A model generated the notes under the pieces. That model did not search any database and had not been told where the DNA came from. It worked only from the letters and a program-made list of their open reading frames with translations. DNA of 64,000 nt, taken from the NCBI RefSeq assembly GCF_040147005.1, contig NZ_JAMSHO010000001.1:434001-498000 (forward strand), given 5' to 3'. Positions within the stretch are counted from its first letter, which is position 1; each line of letters begins with the position of its first letter. This DNA is from Halomonas sp. H10-9-1 (GTDB lineage: Bacteria > Pseudomonadota > Gammaproteobacteria > Pseudomonadales > Halomonadaceae). Made by a program: the position numbers and the translations under genes. Positions 7,491 through 45,676 of the stretch are shown here, in pieces.

Positions 7491-8024
7491 TTAGCTCGCC
7501 TTGGCAGGCAGCTCCTCGAGGGTGACATTGTGGTTGGTGAACACGCAGATATCGCCGGCGATCGCCAGCGATTTCTCGGTGATCTCCCGGGCCGAGAGGT
7601 CGCTGTTCTGGAGCAGGGCGCGGGCCGCTGCCAGGGCATAGTTGCCGCCTGAGCCGATGGCGATGATGCCGCCCTCGGGCTCCAGCACATCGCCGTTGCC
7701 GGTGATGATCAGCGAGGCGTCCTTGTTGGCGACGGCGAGCAGCGCCTCCAGGCGGCGCAGGGCACGGTCGGTGCGCCACTCCTTGGCCAGCTCCACGGCG
7801 GCCTTGACCAGGTTGCCCTGATACTTCTCCAGCTGTGCCTCGAAGCGCTCGAAGAGGGTGAAGGCGTCGGCGGTACCGCCGGCGAAACCGGCCAGCACCT
7901 CGCCGCGATAGAGGCGGCGCACCTTGCTGGCGTTGCCCTTCATCACGGTGTTGCCCAGCGATACCTGGCCGTCGCCGGCCAGTGCGACATGGTCACCGCG
8001 GCGCACGGATACGATCGTGGTCAT
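7491..8024 (-). CDS. hslV: HslV, proteasome-like peptidase
   Basis: HslV is the N-terminal nucleophile threonine protease of the HslVU complex, related to proteasome beta subunits. The 177-residue sequence begins MTTIVSVRR, so removal of Met exposes the catalytic Thr. Family blocks [32 protein letters not shown] and [14 protein letters not shown] are intact. ATG 8024 is preceded by AAGGAGTCCCCTCC, a good ribosome site. A weak sigma-32-like promoter lies upstream. Confidence 0.98.
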
Positions 8025-33858: not shown

Positions 33859-35172
<1,314 letters not shown>

Positions 35173-35177
35173 CCTCA

Positions 35178-35195
35178 TGTAGGAAATCGCTGACA
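35178..35195 (+). promoter_or_regulatory. GacA/UvrY-like upstream activating box
   Basis: TGTAGGAAATCGCTGACA matches the GacA consensus TGTAAG-N6-CTTACA at 10 of 12 defined positions. It begins 5 bp after the eno stop and lies about 175-190 bp before the predicted sRNA start, the kind of distance known for Gac-controlled rsm/csr RNA genes. Confidence 0.5.
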
Positions 35196-35227
35196 AAAAA
35201 GCGGCGATTTTGTCGTCACTTCCGCGC

Positions 35228-35262
35228 AGAGGCCGGCATCATGGGTGCCGGCCTCTTTTTTA
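35228..35262 (+). terminator. eno terminator
   Basis: 11-bp stem AGAGGCCGGCA (35228-35238) with TGCCGGCCTCT (35246-35256), followed by a T-run (TTTTTTA). Strong intrinsic terminator for the pyrG-kdsA-eno operon. Confidence 0.92.
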
Positions 35263-35333
35263 TCCTGTTGAAATGTAATGGTTATTAGCTTGTTTTCATG
35301 GCGAGGGCGAGAGGAGGTGCCGTGCGGGACCGC

Positions 35334-35362
35334 TTGTGCGGGGGCCCGGCTCTGTCAGAATA
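35334..35362 (+). promoter_or_regulatory. Predicted promoter of the CsrB/RsmZ-like RNA
   Basis: TTGTGC (35334-35339), 17 bp, AGAATA (35357-35362; CAGAAT with 16 bp is the alternative). This would start the RNA near 35368, just before its first GGA motif. The hexamers are moderate matches. Confidence 0.45.
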
Positions 35363-35367
35363 TGAAA

Positions 35368-35540
35368 CAGGACAAGGGGGCATGGCACGGCGCCTCCGGC
35401 AGGATGCAACGGGATGCCGAGTGATGCGCCAGGTGCGGCAGGAAGCTGCTTCCGGGCAGGGAGGTCATCACGGGAGTACGGGTGGAAGGAGCCGCCCATG
35501 GAATCGCACGGAGCGGGCGGCCCTTGGGCCGCCTGTTTTC
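35368..35540 (+). ncRNA. rsmZ: CsrB/RsmZ-type CsrA-sequestering small RNA
   Basis: About 173 nt with no good reading frame, ten GGA motifs and a terminator. The GGAs start at 35370, 35402, 35412, 35441, 35460, 35473, 35484, 35488, 35500 and 35510. Several sit in predicted loops: CGGCA (35397-35401) pairs with TGCCG (35415-35419) around a loop holding two, and AC-GGGA-GT exposes another. An intrinsic terminator (35516-35539) ends it. In Pseudomonas aeruginosa rsmZ is next to fdxA, exactly as here, and csrA is at 45479. Such RNAs bind several CsrA dimers and relieve translational repression. The family name is inference; no covariance search was run. Confidence 0.78.
35516..35539 (+). terminator. 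Terminator of the CsrB/RsmZ-like RNA
   Basis: 8-bp stem GGCGGCCC (35516-35523) with GGGCCGCC (35526-35533) followed by TGTTTT. Confidence 0.85.
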
Positions 35541-35583
35541 CTGCAGGTGTTCTCCTTCCTTCTGCCCGGTGGTAGGGCAGAAG

Positions 35584-35621
35584 CGACAGCGCCGACCGTC
35601 GAGAGACGGTCGGCGCTGTCG
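35584..35621. terminator. Perfect 17-bp hairpin between the sRNA and fdxA
   Basis: CGACAGCGCCGACCGTC (35584-35600) pairs fully with 35605-35621 around a GAGA loop. It is placed as the fdxA terminator on the minus strand and as a barrier to sRNA read-through on the plus strand, but neither side has a T-run. Confidence 0.6.
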
Positions 35622-35644
35622 TTGGTGAGCGCGGTGAAGTAGGC

Positions 35645-35968
35645 TCAGCGCTCCAGTTGCTCGAGCTTGCCGGGCTTGCCGTCCCACTCCTCGGCGTCGG
35701 GCAGCGGATCCTTCTTCTCGCTGATATTGGGCCACACCTCGGCCAGCTCGGCGTTGATCTCGATGAACGGCTCCTGGCCATCGGGCAGCTCATCCTCCGA
35801 GAAGATCGCTTCGGCGGGGCACTCCGGCTCGCACAGGGCGCAGTCGATGCACTCGTCGGGGTGGATCACCAGGAAGTTGGGTCCCTCGTAGAAGCAGTCC
35901 ACCGGACACACCTCGACACAGTCGGTGTACTTGCACTTGATGCAGTTTTCAGTGACGACGAATGTCAT
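35645..35968 (-). CDS. fdxA: 7Fe ferredoxin FdxA ([3Fe-4S][4Fe-4S])
   Basis: Small soluble electron carrier of the Azotobacter FdI type, 107 residues. Cys9, Cys17 and Cys50 are placed to bind the 3Fe-4S cluster and Cys21, Cys40, Cys43 and Cys46 the 4Fe-4S cluster, one position offset from Azotobacter FdI. The acidic tail ([19 protein letters not shown]) is family-typical. ATG 35968 has GAGGGAGGAAAGAGC upstream. Its 3' end faces the CsrB/RsmZ-like RNA. Electron partner is not evident from context. Confidence 0.96.
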
Positions 35969-45478: not shown

Positions 45479-45676
45479 ATGCTCATCCTGACCCGCCGTG
45501 TCGGCGAGACCCTGATGATAGGTGACGACATCACCGTGACGGTGCTGGGCGTAAAAGGCAACCAGGTCCGTATCGGGGTGAATGCGCCGAAGGATGTGGC
45601 AGTTCATCGCGAGGAGATCTATCAGCGCATTCAGCGCGAGAAGAGTGACGAGGAAGGTTCTGGTCACGAAGAGTAG
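45479..45676 (+). CDS. csrA: Carbon storage regulator CsrA/RsmA
   Basis: CsrA is a dimeric RNA-binding protein that blocks ribosome access at GGA-containing leaders. The 65-residue product, from ATG 45479 behind AAGGAG, has [12 protein letters not shown], the core strands [20 protein letters not shown] (shown at 20 residues) and [13 protein letters not shown] with the RNA-contacting Leu4 and Arg44-type residues. Order alaS-lysC-csrA-tRNA-Ser-tRNA-Arg is conserved in gammaproteobacteria. Its likely antagonist RNA is encoded at 35368-35540. Confidence 0.98.

Follow-up and report, generated by a model that had tools for sequence, protein, structure and literature searches.

A probable RsmZ-orthologous small RNA gene between eno and fdxA in Halomonas and its family

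The eno-fdxA intergenic region

The window, by which we mean the whole 64-kb stretch of Halomonas DNA that was analysed, contains an unannotated interval between the enolase gene eno and the convergent ferredoxin gene fdxA. A sequence-only reading of the window had proposed that this interval encodes a GGA-rich small RNA (sRNA) of the RsmZ type, which would act by titrating CsrA. We find that there is very probably a real gene at 35370-35541. The features of the locus, in window coordinates, are as follows.

33880..35172, plus strand: eno, enolase (TIGR01060, 669 bits against a cut-off of 300), upstream of the sRNA and co-directional with it
35178..35195, no strand assigned: upstream activating sequence (UAS) of the GacA/UvrY type, TGTAGGAAATCGCTGACA, with one mismatch to TGTARG-N6-CYTACA
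35228..35256, plus strand: probable eno transcription terminator (13 stem pairs and then a T run), lying downstream of the UAS and ahead of the sRNA promoter
35334..35339, plus strand: putative -35 element TTGTGC, of which the TTG is mostly kept in the alignment of relatives (by eye)
35356..35361, plus strand: putative -10 element CAGAAT, 16 nt from TTGTGC; CANA(A/C)T recurs in relatives
35370..35541, plus strand: predicted RsmZ-type CsrA-sponge sRNA, its 5' end placed by inference at about 35368-35370
35435..35449, plus strand: hairpin with AGGAA in its loop (GGA 35441), part of helix 4
35480..35497, plus strand: hairpin with AAGGAG in its loop (GGA 35488), helix 5
35515..35538, plus strand: intrinsic terminator of the sRNA, helix 6, with its hairpin at 35515-35534
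35645..35968, minus strand: fdxA, ferredoxin (NF045490 FdxA, 178.7 bits against a cut-off of 135), convergent with the sRNA
45479..45676, plus strand: csrA, encoding the presumed target protein of the sRNA (NF002469 CsrA, 122.8 bits against a cut-off of 73)

Curated models bear out what the sequence-only reading had said about the neighbours: fdxA is convergent with the GGA-rich stretch, and csrA lies in the same window, about 10 kb beyond the sRNA locus. The same models identify mutS as the next gene after fdxA. The eno terminator is also visible in relatives, in the part of the alignment that was inspected. Between the sRNA and fdxA there is a long hairpin at 35592-35619, seen by eye in many relatives, which is probably the terminator of fdxA.

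Conserved GGA motifs and secondary structure

Ten GGA motifs had been reported at 35370-35512, and our count reproduced that number exactly, with starts at 35370, 35402, 35412, 35441, 35460, 35473, 35484, 35488, 35500 and 35510. For an RNA of 172 nt, shuffling of letters gave a mean of 5.1 GGAs and shuffling of dinucleotides a mean of 5.4; ten GGAs occurred in 26 of 2,000 and 9 of 2,000 such shuffles, respectively. No 140-nt stretch on either strand of the 64 kb holds more than nine GGAs, and nine are reached at only two places, the sRNA locus and near position 8003. The GGA count by itself is thus moderately unusual, and most of the weight lies on conservation.

We measured conservation on an alignment of 35 sequences, leaving out one of 36 (L026), which ends in Ns. 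The sequence-only reading had named a lack of GGA conservation at the fdxA locus of related genomes as evidence that would speak against it. Conservation is clearly present: each GGA is kept at its exact column in 29 to 35 of the 35 sequences, and the one at 35488 is kept in all of them. The consensus structure leaves eight GGAs entirely unpaired; those at 35484 and 35510 are partly paired. It had also been claimed that several of the motifs sit in the loops of short stems. That part holds for the GGAs at 35441 and 35488, which occupy hairpin loops of well-supported helices, and to a lesser degree for the one at 35412, whose loop is closed by a helix of just two pairs that shows no compensatory changes.

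The RNAalifold consensus has 37 pairs, 15 of them with changes on both sides. Scored on the same alignment from which it was derived, and so favoured by the scoring, the structure has 97.1% of its cells paired against 91.1% in shuffles, 15 double-changed pairs against a shuffled mean of 9.7, and 97 double-changed cells against a shuffled mean of 27.6. One of the five covariation measures, the number of further pair types, was weakly above the shuffles (40 against 37.3, with 41 of 500 shuffles as high). When the structures were slid by one to three columns, just 35.9-47.3% of cells paired. Compensatory changes occur in four of the six helices, helices 1 and 2 having none, and 14 of the 15 double-changed pairs fall in helices 3, 4 and 5 (35422-35470, 35428-35457 and 35480-35497). 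Five of the 11 pairs of helix 4 are changed on both sides, with 97.1% of cells paired, as are four of the six pairs of helix 5, with 99.5% paired. Folded as a single sequence, the RNA is moderately better than its 200 shuffles (z -2.15), of which 4 did as well.

Distribution in the family

DNA comparison recovers the sRNA from 35 of 36 genomes of the same genus, and from none of 21 others of the order. We built a covariance model, R1, from the sRNA, and found matches in 164 of 201 genomes of the family, representing 18 of 24 genera. In the genome under study R1 has one match, G000:C1:469368-469541, which corresponds to window positions 35368-35541; under strict filters no second match, and hence no paralogue, was found there. 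The remaining 37 family genomes have no R1 match, and 16 of the 20 listed among them carry gacA, so that either R1 is too narrow or another RNA is used in those genomes.

In named genomes, which overlap the set of 201, an exact search with 20 bases of the RNA finds 52 loci. By title all of them belong to genera of the Halomonadaceae (Halomonas, Billgrantia, Litchfieldella, Vreelandella, Modicisalibacter, Franzmannia or Bisbaumannia). R1 matches 50 of the 52 loci; in the two exceptions (L227 and L246) the 20-base piece stands at the end of the locus. Upstream of the RNA is eno in 50 of the 52 and convergent with it is fdxA in 48; where either gene is missing, the locus is cut on that side. The UAS is found with at most one mismatch in 49 and with two mismatches in one, while two loci are cut there.

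The upstream activating sequence and the Gac/Csr partners

The UAS is an addition to the sequence-only reading, which reported none. It lies 5 nt past the stop codon of eno, in the eno 3' UTR, its first base being 190 nt before 35368, where the model places the start of the RNA. Pseudomonas examples of the element, as given in an excerpt of PMC4353343, are TGTAAGCATTCTCTTACA (rsmY) and TGTAAGCATTCGCTTACT (rsmZ). When two mismatches are allowed, the pattern shows no excess in the genome over its reversed control (165 occurrences, against 179 for the control); the box is therefore meaningful only in its conserved place.

To follow the element in relatives we used 77 loci matched by R1, one per genome, picked partly by genus and gacA state, with the gacA state looked up for each; loci within one clade are not independent in the resulting counts. 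Where the genome bears gacA, every one of the 64 loci has a UAS within two mismatches of the pattern (39 perfect, 22 with one and 3 with two), against two to five mismatches for the reversed pattern at the same loci. Letter-shuffled upstream regions reached this level in 45 of 1,540 cases. The position is also consistent, with 57 of the 64 at -178 to -211, two at -163 and -164, and five at -312 to -341. At 12 of the 13 loci from genomes without detectable gacA the best site has three to five mismatches, like the reversed pattern (three to five).

Nine other UAS-like sites listed with at most one mismatch have at most 5-7 GGAs per 140 nt within 3 kb, against nine at the sRNA locus, and direct reading of three of these regions revealed no RsmX/Y-like gene. 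Two UAS-like palindromes without a GGA-rich RNA nearby, one between the main ORFs of its region (G000:C1:1485455-1485472) and one which by eye is upstream of an ORF start (G000:C1:1668422-1668439), are possible other targets of GacA.

The genome encodes GacA, a GacS-like kinase and CsrA. The GacA candidate, which is the best homologue of UvrY at 50% identity, narrowly missed the curated cut-off of the GacA family model (273.4 against 280). Its gene stands in the order gacA-uvrC-pgsA, with the neighbours confirmed by model, the same order as uvrY-uvrC-pgsA in Escherichia coli. The GacS/BarA-like kinase has HisKA, HATPase, receiver and Hpt domains, and its aligned 747 residues score 644.8, clearly below the BarA cut-off of 890. 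For csrA there is one match.

Among same-genus genomes gacA is present in 36 of 37, being absent from G001, and at E 1e-50 it is found in 181 of the 201 family genomes; the other 20 and G001 have matches to GacA of 27-33% identity or none. CsrA was found in all 22 genomes tested, namely the genome under study and 21 without a strong gacA match. A near full-length GacS-like match is present in G000, G067 and G191. No full-length match to GacS was obtained in G001, G087 or G066, and G145 gave a kinase-domain match only.

Comparison with RsmZ and other CsrA sponges

At Rfam gathering thresholds the whole window yields three tRNAs and no Csr/Rsm family, and a lax scan of 35173-35644 brought up no Csr/Rsm family as far as E = 10. 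CsrB, CsrC, RsmX and RsmY were without a match in the window scan, which covered all 4,227 Rfam families, and the RsmZ model RF00166 (cut-off 44 bits) has none in the whole genome at E <= 0.001. The sequence-only reading had counted the absence of a model hit among the results that would tell against it, and on this point it failed: no family matched at the locus. This leaves two possibilities, Rfam models that are too narrow or an RNA of some other kind. With no membership in any model, orthology to RsmZ rests on position and promoter architecture.

In both respects the locus resembles that of RsmZ. Among 293 genomes of the order, RF00166 scores above its cut-off in 12, at 13 places in total; every one is in a single family, f21, presumably the pseudomonads. 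Each of the 13 has, at -178 to -190, a UAS with no more than one mismatch (the UAS of the Halomonas sRNA is at -190), and in 9 of the 13 fdxA is convergent, at 65-193 nt, as it is with the sRNA. The legend of a figure of the rsmZ region names fdxA, mutS and rpoS (PMC4353343), and mutS comes after fdxA in the Halomonas window too. The two loci differ upstream, where Halomonas has eno, whereas an excerpt of PMC3510223 describes the rsmZ promoter region of Pseudomonas as containing the rpoS terminator. They differ also in the RNA itself, which has ten GGAs in about 172 nt, against six to nine GGAs per RF00166 match and a model of 133 positions.

The resemblance could instead have arisen by convergent evolution, with the Halomonas RNA an independent CsrA sponge, although we think this improbable. 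Convergence would fit the failure of the Rfam RsmZ model to match the sRNA, as well as the weakness of the matches in the opposite direction, where R1 hits 8 of the 13 certified RsmZ places with E values of 5.6e-4 to 0.26. It would also fit the fdxA loci of other families, 18 of 19 of which have no comparable GGA-rich convergent stretch (2-7 GGAs per 140 nt, against 11 in the remaining one, L048). Such sponges can arise anew, RsmV and RsmW being probably of independent origin according to an excerpt of PMC7366521. What argues against convergence is that the fdxA-convergent position and the UAS distance are both as in RsmZ. Further evidence on this side comes from 17 examined loci that RF00166 matches below its cut-off, all but one of which lie outside families f1 and f21: nine are fdxA-convergent, and of these seven have at least five GGAs (the other two have 0 and 2) and six have a UAS with at most two mismatches, at varied distance. 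Two of 14 unrelated genomes used as controls also gave sub-threshold matches in this search, so that such matches alone prove little. Judged by its position, promoter and design rather than by Rfam membership, the sRNA is most likely a diverged orthologue of RsmZ. Our results indicate that likely RsmZ orthologues escape the Rfam model throughout an entire family.

Other known sponges share the design to varying degrees. Excerpts of PMC9788540 describe CsrR2 of Alcanivorax, a GGA-rich sRNA that likewise adjoins a ferredoxin gene and is predicted to sequester CsrA, and which its authors compared with fdxA-rsmZ. Unlike the Halomonas sRNA, CsrR2 is antisense to fdx and stands beside an Hpt-domain gene, and we liken the two by description; its expression was constant with and without alkane (PMC9788540, in the same excerpts). 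CsrB and CsrC of E. coli have the same sponge design, with BarA, UvrY and CsrA as partners (PMC7366521, excerpt). The E. coli csrB gene, at 369 nt, lies between syd and yqcC, in contrast to about 172 nt between eno and fdxA. The GGA-rich exception among the fdxA loci of other families (L048:1950-2420, minus strand, in genome G052) is a long stretch convergent with and downstream of fdxA, followed by a terminator-like hairpin, and resembles a CsrB-sized sponge.

Promoter, terminator and transcription unit

The promoter-like pair that had been noticed upstream of the RNA is present as TTGTGC/CAGAAT, though a simple sigma-70 scan flagged no promoter there. Directly before the RNA, CANA(A/C)T is found at 48 of the 64 loci from gacA-bearing genomes; at the five of these loci with the UAS at -312 to -341 no -10 element was recognised. 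The proposed intrinsic terminator also stands up in relatives, where 97.9% of the cells of helix 6 are paired and one of its eight pairs is changed on both sides, though a simple terminator scan passed over 35515-35534 and flagged 35530-35549 instead. By eye, the U run after the terminator is longer in most relatives.

An RNA processed from eno read-through, derived from the 3' UTR and without a gene of its own, would agree with the placement of the UAS inside the eno 3' UTR and with the finding of the -10 element at just 1 of the 13 loci from relatives without detectable gacA. We consider it very improbable, in view of the strong probable eno terminator that precedes the RNA and the promoter-like element kept before it in three-quarters of the gacA-bearing loci. 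A short protein-coding gene, such as the ORF at 35298-35642 on the plus strand (114 aa), can be set aside almost entirely: long open frames occur in this G+C-rich stretch and 29 of 35 sequences can be read right through the RNA in some plus-strand frame, but none of the frames stays open in more than 20 of the 35, the RNA lengths modulo 3 split 16, 13 and 6, and the variation tracks base pairing.

Proposed function

We hold it highly probable that the locus is an RsmZ-orthologous sRNA gene of about 172 nt, independently transcribed and serving as a Gac-controlled CsrA sponge. The RsmZ-type reading is supported by the conservation of GGAs and structure, the distribution in the family, the UAS distance, the fdxA-convergent position, and the presence of genes for GacA, a GacS-like kinase and CsrA. 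In the mechanism that we predict from the DNA, phosphorylated GacA would bind the palindrome at 35178-35195 and switch on transcription from the promoter at 35334-35361. The RNA would fold into short helices that leave about eight GGAs single-stranded, with two in well-supported hairpin loops. These exposed motifs would bind CsrA dimers and titrate CsrA off mRNA leaders, so that Gac signalling would become derepression of CsrA targets.

Our searches of the open-access PMC literature turned up no described Rsm/Csr sRNA of Halomonas; in an excerpt of PMC13414033, Halomonas is mentioned solely for an engineered PrrF1. According to excerpts of a 2020 review, GacS-GacA of H. anticariensis controls quorum sensing, exopolysaccharide and biofilm, and the sRNA that antagonises CsrA is listed as 'Unknown' (PMC7366521). 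Litchfieldella anticariensis FP35, which represents that species, carries the sRNA locus with an exact UAS (L212). The locus is a strong candidate for the missing CsrA-antagonising sRNA of H. anticariensis, and its presence in FP35 makes the missing link directly testable.

Relatives that lack gacA

The UAS is missing in most relatives that lack gacA. In G001, g29, g31 and g37, none of which has a detectable gacA, the RNA is retained between eno and fdxA and the UAS is absent; single RNA units in gacA-less relatives have 6-11 GGAs. The exception among the 13 gacA-less loci is G191 (L167, L133), a 99% complete genome with no gacA match above 30% identity, yet with a perfect UAS and the GacS-like kinase; its lack of gacA may reflect an assembly gap or a recent loss. 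On a quick tree of enolase, built for 73 of the 77 loci, three changes of gacA state are needed, and two of them are forced by starred branches.

There is in our view an even chance that the sponge outlives its switch, the fdxA-linked RNA being kept in gacA-less relatives (four of which, when tested, also gave no full-length GacS match) after loss of the UAS and having become four tandem units in two genomes of one genus, with titration that would be Gac-independent, rewired to another input or constitutive. These relatives offer a natural experiment on the fate of a Csr sponge after the loss of its two-component switch.

Between eno and fdxA, two g29 genomes without detectable gacA have four R1 units in a row, a putative multi-unit CsrA-sponge array, on the minus strand of L115 (L115:2041-2762, 26 GGAs) and of L128 (L128:1550-2243, 25 GGAs). 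A scan for sigma-70-like promoters flagged none in L115, and R1 finds nothing in a third g29 genome, G064. For G001 we had supposed that the RNA was lost along with gacA. This was rejected when R1 found a diverged copy without a UAS, and the claim was accordingly narrowed to loss of the UAS. The gap between eno and the RNA is 87 nt in G001, a shorter search space for the UAS than elsewhere, and G001 retains a stretch, CAACAATG, that by eye is similar to the -10 region.
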